Below are positions 2,895 through 15,085 of a DNA stretch of 25,765 nucleotides, one piece after another; position 1 is the stretch's first letter, and each line of letters begins with the position of its first letter. The DNA lies in the IMG/VR virus record IMGVR_UViG_3300038309_000241, positions 1 to 25,765 of that record, one strand, 5' to 3'. Both the position numbers and the translations under genes were made by a program. The DNA comes from a virus. The notes below the pieces were generated by a model. It did not search any database, had not been told where the DNA came from, and saw only the letters and a program-made list of their open reading frames with translations.

Positions 2895-5800
2895 TCAACT
2901 GATATAATATAATGGAAGCACCAATCGCGTACGGTTATAATAAATCTGTTTCAGCTGCTCTGCGCATGCGATTGCGGACTCGCTGGCTGTGGCATTCCTT
3001 AGCCCGGAAATCTCGATCATATCTATTGTCGGATTTTGCGACCAATTTCTGTTCCCGGAACTCAACGCCGTCCGTAACCCGCATAATACGTCGTCGACAT
3101 TTGTCAGTCCACAGGCACCGGCATAAAAAGACACGATATTATAACAATCCTCAGTGCCTGTGATAGTTGGTATCGTTTGTGTCTGTGCTACCCCCGCATT
3201 GCAATTAAAATACCGCAATTGAGTTTGCCCCGACAAGTCAAACCCATGCTGAATATTACAGCAGTGTTGTGGCTGAGCCGTTCCTGCTGGGGCGCATGAA
3301 AAATATTCCAATAAACCAACACCCAAATCTATCGATGTAATGGGGTTTCCGGCCACGTCAAGATACGTTAATGGCATTCCGGCCGTGTCGATCACAGATA
3401 AAAAACAATCACGTGCTATTAACACTGTAAGCAACAATCCGTCCATGTTCAGGGCCGTCATATTGTTATTGTGAAATAAATTCAACTCTTTCAGGTTGAC
3501 AGCCGGAGATGCATCTAATTGAGTTATTAAATGAGCCCACGTCAACGATAGCTTTGTCAATGATTCCGGACAATTTGTTAAATAAAACTCTGTGATTATC
3601 GATGCGTAATACATATGCAGTTCTTCGAGATTAACCAGATTCTCAAAGTTTATGCCGGTGTAAAATGCGTCTGATGTCACAATTTTTCTAAATGTAGCAG
3701 CTATTGGGTCCAAAGTATTACCAGCATGTCCTCTTAATCCAAAGCCGCTGACATCTAAACCGATCACATGGCCGTTTTCGATCTCAACCCCAAGCCATTC
3801 TGACACAGGTTTGGCTGACAACCAATTATGGTTTGGCTTTGTCCATTGGTTACCGCCGGTGGCATAGAAAAATGCGATAAGAGCATCTTTTTCGAATTTA
3901 GGCACCACATCGGCTGCAGACGTCACGAATTTTTGCAGTGTCGACCAGCCAGTAAATCCGATATCTGTGATATATTGCACTCTGGCATAATAAATGGTGT
4001 CATCAGCCAAAACACCGTCTTGCACAACAACATTCGTCAGATTTGATTCATCTGATAATGATTGCCATACCGCCGGGCTGTGAAAATAATCATCTGATAT
4101 CTGCCAGTTTGTAGCCAGGTGAGTGGCCGGGATAGCGGATTCAAGATCGGTCGCTACCATGACGACGCTTTCTTTTCCGACTGATTCGCCGTATGCCGGT
4201 ATAATAATAGATGGTGTTGTTAGATTGTCGTTACCGACCGGCCCGTCCGTCTCGATAATTCTATATTCAGTCCCGTCTTCAATTACTCTTAATTCGCCAT
4301 TCTCAGTTTCCCGATATTCAGCTCTGGCATATAAAACCGTCCGCGATTGAGTTTGCCATGATTCCACTCCGTCCCGGACACTAAATAAATAGATATCTAT
4401 TTCACCGTCATAGTTAATATCAGACCATGACACAAACAGCTCTTCGTCCGGTATACCGGTGCATTCATACAATAAAGATCCGTCAGCATGTCTGTTAATC
4501 TGTACGGTATAACTTGTGCCTTCCTCCGGCCCGACACTAACATCATCTTCGGTATCATATATGTCAATTTCGACTTGTTTCCTGTTCCTGTGGCGCCATT
4601 CGATCAATATATCGCCGACAATTTCCGCCCCTATTTCACCGGCATTATTATTAATGCGTAACCGTGCCGGCGGATAAGGTCGGCCCGGCCGAGCTGCCAG
4701 AGTAATACTATTTTCGATCGCATCAGCGATATTCAACGTTCCCAGAGATGTCGTGGGTAGCAGCTTGCCGTAAATGGTCACTCCAATCGTATTCTGCCAC
4801 CCGCAAATCGCACAATCCTCGGAGACCATGTATAAAATGGCCCCGGCGTCGTGAGCCGCCGGTACTGTATCCAGGCATCCACGGCCGACACCGATGGTGT
4901 CAGTACCAATGTCGTCTATCCTGACGACCTCAGCGCCGATGATGCCCCATGATCCGATCAAAACATCAGCGTCATAATCCCATGAAACATTAAACGACGT
5001 GTCAGTAATACCCACACCGGACGCCAAAATTGCATACGGCATAAAACTGGTGGTCCCGATCTGGCCGTATCCGTTACCGGCGTTAAACCATGCCTGGGCA
5101 TCAAAGGCATCACTACTCGGTTCTGATCCAGACAGGCACGCAAAACCGGCGTCGCTTGGCAGCGCTCCCAGATCTGCATTGGCCAGCCCGGTTCGTAATA
5201 AATGATAGGGAGCCTCAAACATGATTCGCAATGGGCAATTTGCCGGCTCATGAATGGGATCTTCCCACTCGCTGGTCGGTAAATCAGAATATATTGCATC
5301 GTCTATACCATACACATCTTCGACGCATTCGACCCTGATACCGCTTTCATCGTTCAGCCCGGAAAAGTCCATCGCCGTGACTCGCATGACAGATTCGTCA
5401 ACCCCATATCGCGGCCAGGATAAAACAAAGGCATCACCGACATTAAGTGCCGATCCATCCAAATTTGTATATATTACCGCATCGGCTAATGGATTCGACA
5501 TGGCGCGCAAATCACGAGACGCCACAAATGCAGCTAGTTCCAAGTTCGCAATGCCGGCGTAATCGATTTCTTCGGAAACAGTTCCGCCCATCGAGGCAAT
5601 GAGGGCCGTATCGTAAACAGTATAAGAGCTGTCCTCACGATTTTCACGATCCCAGAATTTTACGGTAACCGTATTAATGATATCGTCCGTTGTACGCCTT
5701 CTGAATCGCTCGACCTTTATAATATTAGACTCATCAAATACAGGTAGTGATTCTACATCATAGTCATCTCGTATTAGCTTTAATGTAAACAAACCAAATT

Positions 5801-6695
5801 GCCGGTCTATATATAACGACCCATCAATATGTTTCAGGACTTCACGTATAAAGGTTTCTACTGTGCTGCCGTGGTCCCATAAAATTGACAACCCGAAACC
5901 TTCATTATACAAAATGTCAGCGGCGGACTCGAAAGAATCTTTATCTATATCTTTTTCAGGGTATCCCATACCCCACTTTTTATCTGTTAAAACATCATAA
6001 ATAATATGTGCTGGATTACAATCGCTTCCTATTAACGATCTCGGTGAGTACCATTTAGATGGTATATGCCGTGAAAAGAACGACCAGTTTTTCAAATATG
6101 GCGATGTACCCAGGTAAACCTGTTTTAGAATTATGCAGCATACGCCGCGAAATGCCGGCATGTTAGGCCCGATTGCTGAAACTAGGTAAGCGTTCTGTGT
6201 TTGCGTATCCAACCCCATTTCCACATCCACATCACCGGATATACCGCCGTCACTTTTTTCGCCGCCGAATAGCTCCTCCTGGTCGATTGTAATGGTTCCT
6301 CCGGTGCAAGATCCGGCCCACAGCTCTTTTGTACCATCAACAAATATGGCGGTAATGGCATCAATTTCATGTGCCAACACCATGTGGATCCCGAGATAAT
6401 ATTTATACCCGACAGTAACGCGTTTGGTGCCCATCAGAAAACCGCCGTCCACTTTTTCCTTGACAGGCTTCGTCTTAAAATCACCGTACCAGACCACATT
6501 TGGACCTTTTAATTCTTTAGTGCCAAATAATACAGGTATGGCCCGGCCGACCTGTGCCGTCGGCACTTGAAACTGATCAAGACCCGCCGGGCCCCGTCCG
6601 TCAGGCGTATCGGTACTCGGCCGCAAGGCATAAGCAATGGCCAGGCTGAGCGCCACTTTCGCTACTACCCACAGTGCAGTTACCCACCAAACCAT
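2895..6695 (-). CDS. J-like tail tip/host-specificity protein with C-terminal leucine-rich repeats
   Basis: A 1266-residue protein. Residues 3-24 are hydrophobic. Residues 50-77 (GRAIPVLFGT, then GPNVVWYGDF) are the N-terminal signature of lambda J/GTA-type tip proteins. The block near residues 330-430 (IINTVTVKFWDRENRED and the MSNPLADAVIYTNLDG region) fits the Phage-tail_3 (PF13550) core. Fibronectin-III-like segments follow, one at about 826-928. Residues 937-1266 form a leucine-rich-repeat domain: a cap with ALIAFFYATGGNQW and NWLS, then repeats beginning at about 1023, 1046, 1068, 1089, 1109, 1129 and 1160. The start is 7 nt after the previous stop with no strong ribosome binding site, so it is coupled. 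Known relatives sit at the tail tip and bind receptors; the repeat domain is the likely receptor binder. Confidence 0.92.
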   Translation of the reverse strand: MVWWVTALWVVAKVALSLAIAYALRPSTDTPDGRGPAGLDQFQVPTAQVGRAIPVLFGTKELKGPNVVWYGDFKTKPVKEKVDGGFLMGTKRVTVGYKYYLGIHMVLAHEIDAITAIFVDGTKELWAGSCTGGTITIDQEELFGGEKSDGGISGDVDVEMGLDTQTQNAYLVSAIGPNMPAFRGVCCIILKQVYLGTSPYLKNWSFFSRHIPSKWYSPRSLIGSDCNPAHIIYDVLTDKKWGMGYPEKDIDKDSFESAADILYNEGFGLSILWDHGSTVETFIREVLKHIDGSLYIDRQFGLFTLKLIRDDYDVESLPVFDESNIIKVERFRRRTTDDIINTVTVKFWDRENREDSSYTVYDTALIASMGGTVSEEIDYAGIANLELAAFVASRDLRAMSNPLADAVIYTNLDGSALNVGDAFVLSWPRYGVDESVMRVTAMDFSGLNDESGIRVECVEDVYGIDDAIYSDLPTSEWEDPIHEPANCPLRIMFEAPYHLLRTGLANADLGALPSDAGFACLSGSEPSSDAFDAQAWFNAGNGYGQIGTTSFMPYAILASGVGITDTSFNVSWDYDADVLIGSWGIIGAEVVRIDDIGTDTIGVGRGCLDTVPAAHDAGAILYMVSEDCAICGWQNTIGVTIYGKLLPTTSLGTLNIADAIENSITLAARPGRPYPPARLRINNNAGEIGAEIVGDILIEWRHRNRKQVEIDIYDTEDDVSVGPEEGTSYTVQINRHADGSLLYECTGIPDEELFVSWSDINYDGEIDIYLFSVRDGVESWQTQSRTVLYARAEYRETENGELRVIEDGTEYRIIETDGPVGNDNLTTPSIIIPAYGESVGKESVVMVATDLESAIPATHLATNWQISDDYFHSPAVWQSLSDESNLTNVVVQDGVLADDTIYYARVQYITDIGFTGWSTLQKFVTSAADVVPKFEKDALIAFFYATGGNQWTKPNHNWLSAKPVSEWLGVEIENGHVIGLDVSGFGLRGHAGNTLDPIAATFRKIVTSDAFYTGINFENLVNLEELHMYYASIITEFYLTNCPESLTKLSLTWAHLITQLDASPAVNLKELNLFHNNNMTALNMDGLLLTVLIARDCFLSVIDTAGMPLTYLDVAGNPITSIDLGVGLLEYFSCAPAGTAQPQHCCNIQHGFDLSGQTQLRYFNCNAGVAQTQTIPTITGTEDCYNIVSFYAGACGLTNVDDVLCGLRTALSSGNRNWSQNPTIDMIEISGLRNATASESAIACAEQLKQIYYNRTRLVLPLYYIS

Positions 6696-10101: not shown

Positions 10102-10956
10102 TTAAGCCTCCATTTTGAGGGCATAAAAATCATTGAACCCGGTCCGATATACGTCCTGTATGACGACATAAGTCGTTCCGTCGATCAATAAAGTGTTTTC
10201 CGTCGTATTATCAAATCCGGGCACAAAATAGATTCCATCCAGGGCGCCGTACAAATTTGTGTTACCGGAGCCGTCAAACAATTCCACCGGCATCAACGGA
10301 TAATATGTACCGGTGTCTCGAAGCGCCGCCGTCCCCCCTGCTAAAATCGAGTTGCTGAACGGGTAACAATAAATTTTCTGCCAGGTCCCATCAGTATCCC
10401 TCATTTTCATATTTTCGACATTGCCGTTGTAAGGCATGGCATAACCTGTGTTTGAAAACCTGTACGCCTGATCACCATTAAGCATGCCGCCGCAGACAAC
10501 TGGGTAAGGAAATTGGGATGGCTTGGCATATGGTAAAAACTTGCCCACATAACATGACTCATACACCGGCGTTCCCACCTTCAACGCGAACGCGATCCGC
10601 TGAGGATTCCATGTCAACCAATAATCTATACGCTGATTGTGCGCCGGGATCCCGGAATAAATGGCATTCGGTTGGGTGTCGAACGTGTTACCGGATACAT
10701 ATCCGGTGGCGACCATTGCCAGCAGGTTATAATAATCGGCGGAGGCATCCTGGTAGGTTCGAAAACCGACGTATATTTCCTCGAGCCCGGAAAACCCCTC
10801 GCCTTTTAAAATAAGCTCATGATTAGAACCGGAGGTGCCATACCGCATGGTTGACCAGCCTTCCCCGGAGGCTGTGACCAGGCCCTCCAGGGCGGCCAGA
10901 AACGCATAATGCGCCGTCTGCACGGAATTGTCGACATAACCGATATCATATGACAT
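10102..10956 (-). CDS. Siphophage tail structural protein A, following the tape measure
   Basis: A 284-residue protein whose ATG overlaps the tape measure stop (TAATG). Features are ELILKGEGFSGLEEIYVGFR (about 47-66), YYNLLAMVATGYVSGN, YWLTWNPQRIAFALKV and CYVGKFLPYAKPSQFPYPV, which I associate with a family repeatedly found just after the tape measure in transposable and related siphophages. It ends with a beta segment (YVVIQDVYRTGFNDFYALKM). Its position suggests a tail-tip component below the tube. No signal peptide, membrane segment or enzymatic motif is seen. Confidence 0.8.
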   Translation of the reverse strand: MSYDIGYVDNSVQTAHYAFLAALEGLVTASGEGWSTMRYGTSGSNHELILKGEGFSGLEEIYVGFRTYQDASADYYNLLAMVATGYVSGNTFDTQPNAIYSGIPAHNQRIDYWLTWNPQRIAFALKVGTPVYESCYVGKFLPYAKPSQFPYPVVCGGMLNGDQAYRFSNTGYAMPYNGNVENMKMRDTDGTWQKIYCYPFSNSILAGGTAALRDTGTYYPLMPVELFDGSGNTNLYGALDGIYFVPGFDNTTENTLLIDGTTYVVIQDVYRTGFNDFYALKMEA

Positions 10957-13124
10957 TAGAGTGAACTCCTGTTCTTCTGGACGACATTCATGATCATCTG
11001 TTCGCCTTCATCGGTATTCATATAATTGCCTACGATGGACGGATCCAGGACGTTAATGATTTTCGGACTGACGGTCACCTGCGGCGCCGGCGTATCCTGT
11101 TTGCCGACCGGCTGGACGTTCTCTCCGGCATGCAGCTGGTAGCGGTTGCCGGATTTGCCGTACCCGTAAATATCTTCGGGGAGAATACCGCCGGAATCAT
11201 ATGAAAAAAGGCTGCCTTTTAGCCAGTCCATTGCCGCACCGGCGCCAGATTGTATCAATCCGGCCGATCCGCCGCCGCCGCCGAACCATCCGCCGCCGAT
11301 GCCGCCGTTTCCGCCGGTGCCCAGCAAACCGCCCAGGATGTCTTTTGTGGCGCTCTGGAGCAGCATTTCGGTCAGCATGCGGCCGAAGGATTCCAGTATG
11401 CCGTCAAACGTTAGTTCAGAGCTCCACAGCATGTCGTTCAATGACGATGTATAGCTGTTGGCCCACCCGGCGAACGCCTGGCCCATGTCTCCCAGGAAAC
11501 TGTCCTGCTGCTTTTTCAATTCGGCATCTCGGTTCAGCTCGGCCAGCTTGATCATATCGTTTTTAGTGTTGGTGTATTCAACTTCTTTTAGCCCGGCCGC
11601 CTTCCAGGCTTTTTCCAGGTCGGCGATGCGGGCCATCTCGATTTCAAAAGTGGATTTGCCGAAGGTCTGAATTTTAAATTCCGTGTCCTGGCTCATTTTG
11701 GCCAGATCGTCCAGGGCTTTTTTTCTGGACTCTGTCATGGCTTTGGCCAATTGCAACTGCTTGATCACGTCGGCCGACGGCATATCGCCACCGACAGGTG
11801 TTCGGCGGGTGATTTCAGGTGCCGTGACTTTGCCGGATTCCATCGATTCTATCTCTTTTTTAAGCTTCTGAACGGTATCGATCACACCGGTATATTTTCC
11901 CTCAACGGATGCGATTTCTTTGGAAATCTCCTCCATGTTGGTTTTGGTGGCCCATTTTAAGTCCTCGAATGTCTGATCGATGGTGTCAAACGGATTGGTT
12001 TCTATTGCGCCCAGTTTATCCAACCCCTCCATCAGCAGATTTAGAGGACCAAGACTTGTTTTTTTCAGGGCGTCAAATAAAAAGCTCATCGATTTGACTA
12101 TGGCATCTATGGCCGCTGTTCCAGCCAGTTTGATGTCCAGCCAGGCACTATGAAAAAATTTGATGACCGACAGGACTTTTTCAATACCGCCCACGATCGC
12201 AACTATCCCGTTTTTAGCCAGGGCCATCATTTCTTCGCGGTTTTCTGCGATATACGCTGACCACTGCCGGAAGTACCCGGCCGCCTTGTTGACCAGGTCG
12301 ATAAAAAACTGGTTTTTGGTAATCACGAATCCCAGCTCTTCTTTCAGATCGCCAAAGTCTCCGGCGGCGCCCTGAACAGCCCCGCCAAACGTGTTTCTCA
12401 GTGCTTCGGCAGCGCCTCCGAACTGGCTTTCCAACTCTTTGAGGATAACGGCCTGGGCCTCTGCCTCCCGTCCGGCTTCCCACAGGGTTTTGATCATCTC
12501 TTTCTGATCGTTGGTAAACTGGATTCCTGTCCTGGACAGGGCGCCCAGGTTGGCGATGGGGTCGTTCAAAGCTTTGCCCAGTTGCACCATCGAGCTGTTT
12601 AAATCCTGTCCCATGACGGCAGACACGTCCAGTGCGGCCTTTGTCGTACGCTCAAAAGCCTCTCCGCGGATCTGTTTGAATGTCAAGAGGATCGACTGAG
12701 CGTTTAAAATCGTCTCATCGCCCACGCCGGTCAGGGCCTGCATGCCGGACGCCATTTTTTTAAGTTCGCCGAGCGTGAACCCGGCGGCATGTCCGGTGGA
12801 TTCGATGACCGCCGCAACTTTGGCTTCCGCCTCTTCTTGTACTTTAGCCAGGCCGACCATCTCGGATATAACGGATTTCAGCTTATTGAACACCACAAAG
12901 GCCGTGGCGATCCCAGCCGCCGCCGCCGCCAGGCCGACCAGGGCGATCTTGGCGGCCACGGCCTTCAGATTGAAATCGTGAAGGCTTTTCTTCGAACGAT
13001 CGAACGCCTTTTCGCTTTTGTCGCCGGCCTTGGCCGACTCTCCGGCAAACTGGCGTACCTTTACCGTCCCTTTATCATCGACATCCAGGGTAACATTGAT
13101 TGAAGAGACGTTTCCCGCAGCCAT
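10956..13124 (-). CDS. Tail length tape measure protein
   Basis: A 722-residue protein. ATG at 13124 follows AAGGG at suitable distance, and the first 64 nt overlap the end of the frameshifted chaperone product. After a charged N-terminus (VRQFAGESAKAGDKSEKAFD), residues about 55-80 form an Ala-rich hydrophobic segment (ALVGLAAAAAGIATAFVVF). Long alpha-helical coiled-coil stretches follow (KVQEEAEAKVAAVIEST, TWEAGREAEAQAVILKELE-like heptads, then about 440-540). The C-terminus has a Gly-rich stretch and the YDSGGILPEDIYGYGKSGN/HAGENVQPV region typical of lambda-type tape measures. It sets tail length and is threaded in the tube. At 722 residues it predicts a tail of roughly 100 nm (about 0.15 nm per residue). 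Confidence 0.95.
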   Translation of the reverse strand: MAAGNVSSINVTLDVDDKGTVKVRQFAGESAKAGDKSEKAFDRSKKSLHDFNLKAVAAKIALVGLAAAAAGIATAFVVFNKLKSVISEMVGLAKVQEEAEAKVAAVIESTGHAAGFTLGELKKMASGMQALTGVGDETILNAQSILLTFKQIRGEAFERTTKAALDVSAVMGQDLNSSMVQLGKALNDPIANLGALSRTGIQFTNDQKEMIKTLWEAGREAEAQAVILKELESQFGGAAEALRNTFGGAVQGAAGDFGDLKEELGFVITKNQFFIDLVNKAAGYFRQWSAYIAENREEMMALAKNGIVAIVGGIEKVLSVIKFFHSAWLDIKLAGTAAIDAIVKSMSFLFDALKKTSLGPLNLLMEGLDKLGAIETNPFDTIDQTFEDLKWATKTNMEEISKEIASVEGKYTGVIDTVQKLKKEIESMESGKVTAPEITRRTPVGGDMPSADVIKQLQLAKAMTESRKKALDDLAKMSQDTEFKIQTFGKSTFEIEMARIADLEKAWKAAGLKEVEYTNTKNDMIKLAELNRDAELKKQQDSFLGDMGQAFAGWANSYTSSLNDMLWSSELTFDGILESFGRMLTEMLLQSATKDILGGLLGTGGNGGIGGGWFGGGGGSAGLIQSGAGAAMDWLKGSLFSYDSGGILPEDIYGYGKSGNRYQLHAGENVQPVGKQDTPAPQVTVSPKIINVLDPSIVGNYMNTDEGEQMIMNVVQKNRSSL

Positions 13125-13788
13125 TGGTTTACCCTTCCCAGATCATGCCATTCATCGTATTCCAGGTCGTTTGCCCGGAACGGATAACCGCCCTGTTGCA
13201 TAAGCCTGAGCCGCAGCAGTTTGACGGTATACAAAGAAAGATCCCGGAGGCGTTTTTTGGGGCAGTTTGAACATGACCATTCGAGGTTTTCTCCGAATTC
13301 TTCAGCGCATTTTGATTCCTCATCGTCATCGCACAAACCCCTTGAAATCGCCTCCAGGTCTTCAATCAGTTTTTTTCCGGTCCCTCATCAAGATCATCGT
13401 CTTCGTCGTCGCCTTCGGGATCCTCCACTTCCGCAGACCCCTCGAACACCGTCGCTGCCAGGAGTTGTATCAAATCGGCAGCGTGCTCACAGATCTGGTC
13501 CTTCCAGTTTGCCTGATAATTGGGCGAGTCATTATCGGACGATATCGGATTGCCGCCGGGTGATATAAAATCACCCTCGCGGAACCCGACCAGGATTTTC
13601 GCCCCGAATTTTTGCCTGGTCTCGCCAAACGCCATCTTCACTTTGTTGCGCTTCCGGCTGATGGTCTGGTTGCTGTATGCGGCCCGTTCGTCCGTGGTCG
13701 GATTGCGATAATAGAGCTCGATATTGCTGCCGCTGATATTGTCGTACAACCTCAGGGTATTGCGGTCTGTCCCAAGAATTCTTGCCAT
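13061..13788 (-). CDS. Tail assembly chaperone, -1 frameshift product (gpGT-like)
   Basis: The 140-codon upstream frame ends KN-TGA on the heptamer A AAA AAC. A -1 slip there enters an open frame starting CTG ATT GAA that runs to 13061 and adds 102 residues (242 in total). The added part has no good start of its own. It contains a protein-like domain with LYTVKLLRLRLMQQGGYPFR and EYDEWHDLGRVNQWL, typical of the second half of siphophage tail chaperones, and a Cys pair (CSNC). In lambda the short form coats the tape measure and the long form recruits tube subunits. The extension overlaps the tape measure start by 64 nt. The frame relation was checked by codon phase; protein evidence is lacking. 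Confidence 0.85.
13366..13788 (-). CDS. Tail assembly chaperone, short form (gpG-like)
   Basis: A 140-residue protein starting MARILGTDRNTLRLYDN, with AGGAGG just upstream of the ATG. The body (FGETRQKFGAKILVGFREGDF) is followed by a segment with NYQANWKDQICEHAADLIQLL and a very acidic tail rich in Asp and Glu, ending PEKN at a slippery heptamer. Its size, its position between the tube and tape measure genes and its frameshift site match the short tail assembly chaperone of siphophages. It is expected to be made in excess over the frameshifted form and not to be part of the finished virion. Confidence 0.85.
   Translation of the reverse strand: MARILGTDRNTLRLYDNISGSNIELYYRNPTTDERAAYSNQTISRKRNKVKMAFGETRQKFGAKILVGFREGDFISPGGNPISSDNDSPNYQANWKDQICEHAADLIQLLAATVFEGSAEVEDPEGDDEDDDLDEGPEKN
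13369..13375 (-). promoter_or_regulatory. Programmed -1 ribosomal frameshift site (A AAA AAC)
   Basis: In the zero frame the codons are GAA AAA AAC TGA, so A AAA AAC is a standard X XXY YYZ slippery heptamer, placed directly before the stop. An SD-like GAGGGA lies at 13381-13386, 5 nt upstream of the heptamer, and could help slippage. No strong downstream hairpin is obvious by eye. Slipping by -1 joins the 140-residue chaperone to a 102-residue extension. Confidence 0.85.
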
Positions 13789-13807: not shown

Positions 13808-15085
13808 TTACGCGGCGTATGTCGCCACCTGGTTTAATACTTCCACGATGACGCTGCCGTAGGTATCGTCCTCGAGTACCTGCAAATCCCCGGCCTCGGC
13901 CAGCAGCTTGCCGTTAACGGAGATCGGGGCCGACAAAACCCCCAGCTTCGGGAATGTCAGTTTGACCTCGTAATTTTCTCCGGTGGCGAACTCCGCACCG
14001 GTGCACACGATCTGCAGGCCGATGGTATCGTTGTCGGCGATGTGCTGCTGGATGATAAAATCACGGAACTCCCGGTCCAGCTTCAACGTCTGTGCCCGGC
14101 CGTTCCGAAACGCCCTGGCCGCGTATGCTCCGCCGCCGCCGAAGGTAAATTCGATGGCCATGTCGTTGTTCAGATTATGCTCGATAGAGTTGACCTCGGC
14201 CGACATGGTCCGCCCGCCGGAAAACGCGGATCCGGTCCAGGTACCGCCGAAATTGACAGTGGCCTCGGATATCCGTAATGGCGTTTCGGTTACCCGGGAC
14301 GGCAGGCTCATCCAGCCGCTTTCAGTCGGCACGTAAATCACCTTGTAGGTAATATCGTCACCCGCCACACCCGGCGCCGAAATGGTAATCACGGCCGGTG
14401 TCGCGTCGGATACGGCGGAAAAACTCACGTCCGTCCAGACGCCGGTCGTCAGCTCGGCCTTGATGGCCTGGACGTTGTCCAGCCTGGCGGCGGCCGTGGC
14501 GCCTTCAACGCCGTTGGCGGCCAGTGTCAAGGAGGTGGCGTCGGGACCATCGGTGATCGTTTCCTCGGTCACGTTATCCGTGTACTTGCCGGTGCCTTTC
14601 AGCTCGCCGACAATCTTGACCCAGTCGTCTTTGGTAAACGTGGCCGTCACGCTGTTGACGAACATGGAAGCAAACCGTCGTTTTAACACCGTCTTGCCGA
14701 AGCGCTGGGCCAGGGTGAACCCGGGGTTGGAACGGTCGGACGCCAGATCGCCGTCCAGCGGCGTAATGGTATGGCGATAGCCGTTACCTTCGGAGGCCGT
14801 GGAAACCGACCCCAAACCGAACGCATACAGCAGCGCAAAATGCTGCGGCTGGGCTTTTTCAAAGTTTAGCGTCATGGCGGCCGTGGCGCCGTTGTCGTAG
14901 ATGGTGTCCGCCTCTTCCTTGCCGGTCAGCTCGTTGGCGTTGTTCTCCCGCCGTGTCTCCAGGTTGCAGACATCGTTGACGCTGCACAGCAGGGAAGTAT
15001 CCAGGGTCTGCTCGGTATTCAGGGCGGTCTCGGCATTGTTGGCAGACACCGCCACGATGTTATGATTGGCTCTGCTCGATCTCAT
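13808..15085 (-). CDS. Siphovirus major tail tube protein
   Basis: A 425-residue protein. ATG at 15085 is chosen because GAGGAG lies 7 nt upstream; this overlaps the end of the previous gene by 26 nt. The N-terminal part (AVSANNAETALNTEQTLDTSLLC, and FALLYAFGLGSVST further on) and C-terminal part (YEVKLTFPKLGVLSAPISVNGKL) fit the tube proteins of non-contractile phage tails. The middle (around residues 170-270) looks like an inserted or appended beta-sandwich. The presence of this protein and the absence of a sheath gene define the tail as non-contractile. It is followed by the chaperone and tape measure, the standard order. Confidence 0.82.
   Translation of the reverse strand: MRSSRANHNIVAVSANNAETALNTEQTLDTSLLCSVNDVCNLETRRENNANELTGKEEADTIYDNGATAAMTLNFEKAQPQHFALLYAFGLGSVSTASEGNGYRHTITPLDGDLASDRSNPGFTLAQRFGKTVLKRRFASMFVNSVTATFTKDDWVKIVGELKGTGKYTDNVTEETITDGPDATSLTLAANGVEGATAAARLDNVQAIKAELTTGVWTDVSFSAVSDATPAVITISAPGVAGDDITYKVIYVPTESGWMSLPSRVTETPLRISEATVNFGGTWTGSAFSGGRTMSAEVNSIEHNLNNDMAIEFTFGGGGAYAARAFRNGRAQTLKLDREFRDFIIQQHIADNDTIGLQIVCTGAEFATGENYEVKLTFPKLGVLSAPISVNGKLLAEAGDLQVLEDDTYGSVIVEVLNQVATYAA

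Follow-up and report, generated by a model that had tools for sequence, protein, structure and literature searches.

A pair of overlapping tail genes, G and T, is very probably joined by a -1 ribosomal frameshift at an A_AAA_AAC heptamer, so that two tail assembly chaperones would be made from one start in the manner of phage lambda; we put the probability of this reading at about 0.93. The genes lie on the minus strand of IMGVR_UViG_3300038309_000241, a 25,765-bp virus contig that was analysed at its full length and is called the window below. The pair adds to the known lambda-type kind of frameshift, in an unannotated protein family found largely in virus contigs and Desulfobacterota genomes, and its 110 unique junctions represent a natural experiment in which the phase stays and the types of site change.

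The G/T Locus

The head side of the window matches Mu-like families for portal and capsid (PF06074, E 1.9e-96; PF10124, E 3.7e-92), matches on the tail side are to tape measure and tail proteins, and the gene order around the junction is tail protein, G, T and tape measure:

13808..15085, minus strand: 425-aa tail protein frame, occupying the major tail protein's position ahead of G (PHROG matches at E 1.6e-9 to minor tail protein and at E 0.01 to major tail protein)
13366..13788, minus strand: G, the gpG-like zero-frame gene, 140 aa, ATG with SD AGGAGG; homologue in 225/225 loci
13381..13386, minus strand: SD-like GAGGGA, 5 nt 5' of the heptamer, a possible stimulator (predicted anti-SD pairing -6.1 kcal/mol)
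13369..13375, minus strand: slippery heptamer A_AAA_AAC adjoining TGA, read from the sequence; common to 25/110 unique junctions, window included
13366..13368, minus strand: zero-frame stop TGA, read from the sequence
13061..13369, minus strand: T, the -1-frame extension, 102 codons plus stop, with a four-cysteine domain (sequence and alignment of 45 members)
10956..13124, minus strand: tape measure protein, 722 aa, starting 64 nt inside T (PHROG tail length tape measure, E 5.6e-41)

G begins with the ATG at 13788, its SD AGGAGG lies at 13799-13794 (minus strand), and its final codons are GAG GGA CCG GAA AAA AAC TGA. The original prediction, made from the letters alone, had described a zero-frame gene ending in GAA AAA AAC TGA, and such a gene is found as a minus-strand reading frame from 13788 to 13366, with the heptamer (13375-13369) directly before the stop (13368-13366) and GAGGGA (13386-13381) 5 nt upstream of the heptamer, both as predicted. 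The arithmetic of the proposed slip holds as well: the open -1 frame spans 13384-13061 and, counted from CTG at 13369, comprises 102 codons, giving a predicted G-T fusion of 140 + 102 = 242 residues, and the extension overlaps the start of the tape measure gene, an ATG at 13124, by the expected 64 nt. The claim that T has no usable start was a little too strong, as the T frame holds a TTG at 13336; this codon is without a well-spaced SD and lies inside the conserved T domain, 3' of LIEDLEAIS. Elsewhere in the window, weak matches to leucine-rich repeats (LRR_4 at E 0.001, below the cut-off) lie towards the C-terminus of a 1266-aa tail protein frame (2895-6695).

The G and T Proteins

Scans of Pfam and PHROG with 45 members of the G and T alignments found no family save one weak Pfam match of a single member (PknG_rubred, E 0.008), and a fold search of the PDB gave best matches of E 1.6 for G and E 3.0 for T. 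The AlphaFold model of G (pLDDT 90) has no match in BFVD below E 0.001, all matches being at E 0.002 or more with TM-scores mostly of 0.2-0.5. Among the 50 BFVD matches listed, 12 are named for a function and 10 of these are tail assembly or tape measure chaperones, the best of them at E 0.004 and with low TM-scores, so that the modelled fold of G weakly resembles that of tail assembly chaperones. T is modelled as helical (pLDDT 93). Its cysteines C15, C23, C35 and C38 are invariant in the 45 aligned members, and in the window their spacing is C-x7-C-x11-C-x2-C, followed by GGYPF..NDL...EW; the four-cysteine domain is probably a zinc site in the extension of a tail chaperone. The conserved residues of T begin right after the slip site, 5' of the TTG.

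Relatives and Conservation of the Phase

Used as single queries, the G and T of the window gave no match among 50,697 phage records, and in viral contigs they gave no locus for G and two for T; a three-row T alignment returned the same two contigs. A three-row G alignment retrieved 45 loci in viral contigs, and a 45-row G alignment retrieved ten loci in titled genome contigs, seven of them under Desulfobulbus, Desulfobulbaceae, Desulfobacterium, Desulfobacter vibrioformis or Deltaproteobacteria and one each under Bacillota, Bacteroidota and plain bacterium. From searches with larger T alignments the best 80 of 143 and the best 80 of 121 matches were kept. The pool comprised 227 sequences, window included, and 225 loci remained after two of ten pattern matches (L142 and L143), which carry neither gene, had been left out. 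Many of the 225 are repeats of one contig, and merging of junctions with at most 3 differences per 120 nt left 110 unique ones.

In all 225 loci (110 unique junctions), drawn from viruses and prophages and with the window counted in, T lies in the -1 frame of G, its opening being ahead of the G stop, which bears out the conservation of phase for which the original prediction had proposed a check in relatives. Downstream of T, a reading frame of at least 400 aa occurs within 900 nt in 95/110, and 14 of the remaining 15 run off the contig; an upstream frame of at least 400 aa is present in 36 of the 38 loci inspected (37 non-canonical or otherwise unclassified loci and the window). Among 20 close pairs, dN for T is 0.07-0.27 and dS 0.25-2.8 (undefined in two), with dS above dN wherever it is defined, showing from the codons that T is under purifying selection. 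Between -30 (or the opening of the frame) and the first conserved cysteine, 85/110 unique junctions have no ATG, GTG or TTG in the T frame, and 25/110 have some such codon. None of the 110 has ATGA, GTGA or TTGA at the stop, and all 37 TGA junctions read CTGA. In one relative (L009:4394-4413), inspection by eye found that the G stop is followed at once by an 8-bp inverted repeat, part of which then recurs, as if a small element sat in the T frame without breaking it.

Putative Slip Sites Across the Family

An in-phase X_XXY_YYZ heptamer, searched for up to 60 nt before the stop, is found in 78 of the 110 unique junctions, within -30 to -3 in 76/110 and exactly at -7 in 47/110. The 78 comprise A6 types (28, of which 25 share with the window an A_AAA_AAC that adjoins the stop), GGGAAA(C/G) (17), CCC types (28), A_AAC_CCT (4) and G_GGT_TTT (1); at C_CCT_TTG loci the site often precedes the stop by 16-25 nt. 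Over the final 27 nt, -1-phase heptamers occupy 81/990 places, against 7/1100, 20/4400 and 31/7700 farther upstream in the same 110 junctions, a 13- to 20-fold enrichment of phase-matched heptamers near the stop, and the other two phases hold 1 and 23 heptamers in the same stretch, 21 of the 23 being the A7 run itself. On trees built without the junction, the site labels require 33-37 parsimony changes compared with at least 59 for shuffled labels, these counts being rough for a tree with low support at many nodes. The site types so seem to follow descent in part, yet to turn over often, with the phase constant.

The heptamer is absent from the remaining 32 unique junctions, among them L002, the relative most alike to the window in T (74% in the best segment). 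The conservation of the heptamer, on which the original prediction had staked itself in naming heptamer-less relatives as a refutation, is therefore partial. The 32 junctions all keep the -1 phase, and in 23 of them no usual start precedes the conserved domain, which points to other slip sites and not to an absence of frameshifting.

Junctions Without a Heptamer

The 32 junctions fall into class i (14), class ii (13) and five others. Class i, to which L002 belongs, has C-N-G-G-A-(C/G)-stop at the exact place of the heptamer, in the forms CAG GAC TGA (10), CCG GAC TGA (2), CGG GAC TGA (1) and CAG GAG TAA (1), and is invariant at positions -6, -4, -3 and -2. GAC is chosen in 13/13, and elsewhere in these genes GAC stands at 72 versus 65 for GAT (chance 2e-4); the preference for CAG over CAA carries less weight (p 0.03). 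TGA is the stop codon of 13/14, versus 23/78 heptamer loci (Fisher p 1e-5). Elsewhere in the G genes the pair CNG GAC makes up 59 of 10,670 codon pairs, from which 0.6 would be expected in 110. Two members (L040 and L108) have a -1 frame that is closed upstream of -7, which confines a shift to the final two codons. The 14 tips are scattered over the tree and require 10-11 parsimony changes, near the mean of 13.4 for shuffled labels, and the class thus appears to have had many origins or exchanges. For six of the 14 an ATG, GTG or TTG precedes the first cysteine, which counts against a slip in those six.

From these patterns class i looks like a selected, non-canonical -1 site. It departs from both the Z_ZZN and the X_XXY_YYZ rule, as re-pairing from CAG to CCA and from GAC to GGA would be non-cognate, and the sole re-pairing common to the whole class, GAC or GAG to GGA, needs U:G at the mid-position. 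According to the available text of PMC5009743, almost every -1 shift needs at least Z_ZZN, although very low product without re-pairing is also cited there; class i would accordingly be an exception. We consider the odds about even that -1 recoding also takes place at C_NG_GAC_UGA, without heptamer or tetramer, where the peptidyl-tRNA-Asp would slip from GAC to GGA through a G:U mid-position pair with the slow UGA in the A site, the site having been swapped with heptamer sites some ten times by parsimony. If true, the minimal rule for bacterial -1 sites would need widening. A restart at the CTG of CTGA is judged less probable and was rejected as the main reading of class i, since the upstream GGA is invariant in 14/14 and too close for an SD, and one member reads GTAA. 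No report of C_NG_GAC_UGA was found in the literature on non-heptamer tail chaperone sites, in a survey of literature listings and of excerpts from the papers cited here.

Class ii is defined by G_GAC_CCT, with A_AAC_CCT as its sister form, and G_GAC_CCT occurs elsewhere at 3/10,670 positions. The filter for this class demanded the leading G, and a locus from a host genome (L253) has C_GAC_CCT; the idea that the site requires GAC to re-pair with GGA was dropped on this ground, leaving the Z_ZZN tetramer C_CCT as the common, firm part. The five others are GAA AAG TAA (2), AAG GAG TAA, and L009 and L047, both without a clear site.

Possible Stimulatory Elements

SD-like pairing is enriched at a similar position in four of the five site classes, class ii being without such an element. 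It exceeds, at 3-10 nt upstream of the site, that in a control window 20-27 nt upstream for the A6 (p 0.0002), GGGAAA (p 0.0003), CCC (p 0.016) and C-NG-GAC (p 0.005) sites, and is strongest some 6 nt 5' of the site in A6, GGGAAA and class i, the corresponding distance in CCC being about 10 nt, with peaks of -5.2 to -6.7 kcal/mol compared with control means of -0.9 to -1.3. Against synonymous resampling the excess has p 0.003 (A6), 0.02 (GGGAAA), 0.13 (CCC) and 0.15 (class i), significant for A6 and GGGAAA only, which makes the element in part a side effect of acidic codons; pairing in class ii is weaker than expected under the same resampling (p 1e-4).

Downstream RNA structure was rejected as a general stimulator, being clear in GGGAAA loci only (mean z -2.5) and least in class i (-0.36), with A6 at -1.05, CCC at -0.9 and class ii at -0.75, and control windows near 0 except in one small mixed group. 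The downstream RNA of the window folds at -10.8 kcal/mol over 65 nt, versus a mean of -20.1 over 60 for the A6 class.

Host Genomes

Relatives of T are present in 17/395 genomes of the phylum of G001 (the genome of L061, Desulfobacter vibrioformis), in 8/389 of the class of G002, in 5/291 of the order of G588, in 1/8 of the order of G168 and in 21/29 of the class of G010, these draws overlapping between groups. The host loci with both genes, some of them on contigs already counted, have T in the -1 frame in 34/36, four loci with T and no G by the G model (L235, L250, L256 and L258) having been left out of the 36; in the two exceptions, L260 and L262, both from the class of G010, T opens after the G stop.

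In this Desulfobaccia-like class, a Mu-like portal is present in 25/29 genomes versus 0/14 controls, and T in 21/29. The head module lies within 3 kb of ftsH in ten genomes (L272, L273, L274, L276-L278, L280, L282, L283 and L289), and folP and cdaA follow ftsH in nine of the ten, L280 ending too soon; four (L275, L279, L284 and L285) have at least 6 kb on that side without ftsH, and in all the remaining genomes the contig ends too soon. By its distribution the Mu-like head/T module of this class is a candidate gene transfer agent; the word 'phage' is absent from the accessible portion of PMC3156406, on Desulfobacca acetoxidans. In one genome the reading frame after T, in the place of the tape measure gene, is about 254 aa long and has no Pfam match (L270:4650-5414), which suggests a very short tail. 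Among 20 loci of this class (L234, L236-L244 and L259-L268), 13 end G in GG, then GAC, GGC, GAA or GAG, and then the stop, with TGG GAC TGA in 4 and TGG GGC TGA in 5, a mixture, at a single position, of G_GAC with the Z_ZZN tetramer G_GGC. In most of these loci the -1 frame is already open some 40 nt farther up, so that the slip site is not fixed.

Proposed Mechanism and Alternatives

From the reading frames, their phase, the site, its conservation and the selection on T, all read directly from the DNA, we infer the slip itself, its rate, its helpers and the roles of the products in tail assembly. The phage would have a Mu-type head and a siphovirus-type tail. Most ribosomes would stop at TGA and release G (140 aa), and a minority would slip back one base on A_AAA_AAC, the Lys and Asn tRNAs re-pairing with AAA AAA, to give G-T (242 aa), probably helped by the adjacent stop and by the upstream GAGGGA, which would pair with 16S rRNA. 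With lambda as the model, G would coat the tape measure protein and the T domain would recruit the major tail protein. The window site fits ordinary tandem slippage. For E. coli tRNA-Asn only double slippage is possible at its codon (PMC5009743, in the part available), and the behaviour of A_AAA_AAC in E. coli would suit a low ratio of G-T. Weighing against this course are the 32 unique junctions without a heptamer, L002 among them, the modest fold of the window's downstream RNA, the TTG in its T frame, an SD-like signal that stands up to resampling for A6 and GGGAAA alone, and the weakness of the fold matches.

That G and T are instead two separate proteins, with T started independently or by stop-restart coupling at the window TTG or, in others, at the CTG overlapping TGA, appears unlikely. 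The TTG is indeed present in the T frame, some usual start precedes the first cysteine in a quarter of the unique junctions (25/110), 37/37 TGA junctions read CTGA, and T opens after the G stop in L260 and L262. Most junctions (85/110), however, have no usual start in that interval and none has the usual coupling overlaps, the in-phase heptamers are 13- to 20-fold enriched, and the conserved residues of T start directly after the slip site, upstream of the TTG.

Slippage of RNA polymerase on the A7 run, and not of the ribosome, as the source of the -1 product is suggested by the seven consecutive A of the window and is very improbable, since the GGGAAAC, CCCTTTG and CNGGAC sites of relatives stand in the same phase at nearly the same place without a long single-base run. 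A sequencing error behind the change of frame, or a T that is a decayed remnant, would be conceivable in relatives that are mostly metagenome contigs, but the identical phase in 225/225 loci from many contigs and a dS above dN in every pair with a defined dS leave hardly any credence for either. For the preferred -1 ribosomal frameshift there is also a practical consequence, in that a gene finder which insists on a start codon or on a heptamer would overlook T at many junctions.

Comparison With Known Frameshift Systems

The likeness to lambda gpG/gpGT on which the original prediction rested is supported by gene order, the fixed -1 phase, phase-matched heptamers in 78/110, purifying selection on T and the lack of start-stop overlaps. 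Shared with lambda are the gene order, the overlapping reading frames and a probable -1 shift near the end of G, with putative chaperone roles as described in the available text of PMC5009743; A_AAA_AAC directly before the stop is a feature of the window, lambda's own site lying outside the comparison, and G and T differ from their lambda counterparts in having no PHROG or convincing Pfam match. Compared with the g-t frameshift of the haloarchaeal viruses HCTV-1, -2 and -5 (PMC5009743, in part), site swapping is wider in the present family, which also has C_CCT_TTG, C_CCA_AAC, A_AAC_CCT, G_GAC_CCT and C_NG_GAC_UGA. The Mu-like siphophages of Pseudomonas (PaMx73/D3112 group) likewise combine a Mu-like genome with a siphovirus tail and a putative T_TTT_TTC -1 site between overlapping tail assembly frames, but their site lies 43 codons before the stop and their second frame has a putative AUG (PMC4378225, in the sections available).

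The C_NG_GAC_UGA site bears on the extent of codon re-pairing that a -1 shift in bacteria requires, and parts of it have precedents. GGA is tolerated as a -1 P-site codon at G_GAU_UUY of insect flaviviruses and in plant viruses, with G_GAU_UUU in PEMV, and in PEMV the stop codon 3 nt 3' of the site matters (PMC4342338, PMC5009743, both in the portions available); those sites are eukaryotic and, unlike C_NG_GAC_UGA, are followed by a slippery second codon. The PRFect motifs GGGGGAA and CCCGGAA are phage sites, chiefly of tail chaperones, at which a G:U pair would let the second tRNA re-pair with GGA, as has been proposed for phage sites in the available text of PMC10885494, although these use GAA and not GAC, and their first codon re-pairs, unlike that of C_NG_GAC_UGA.
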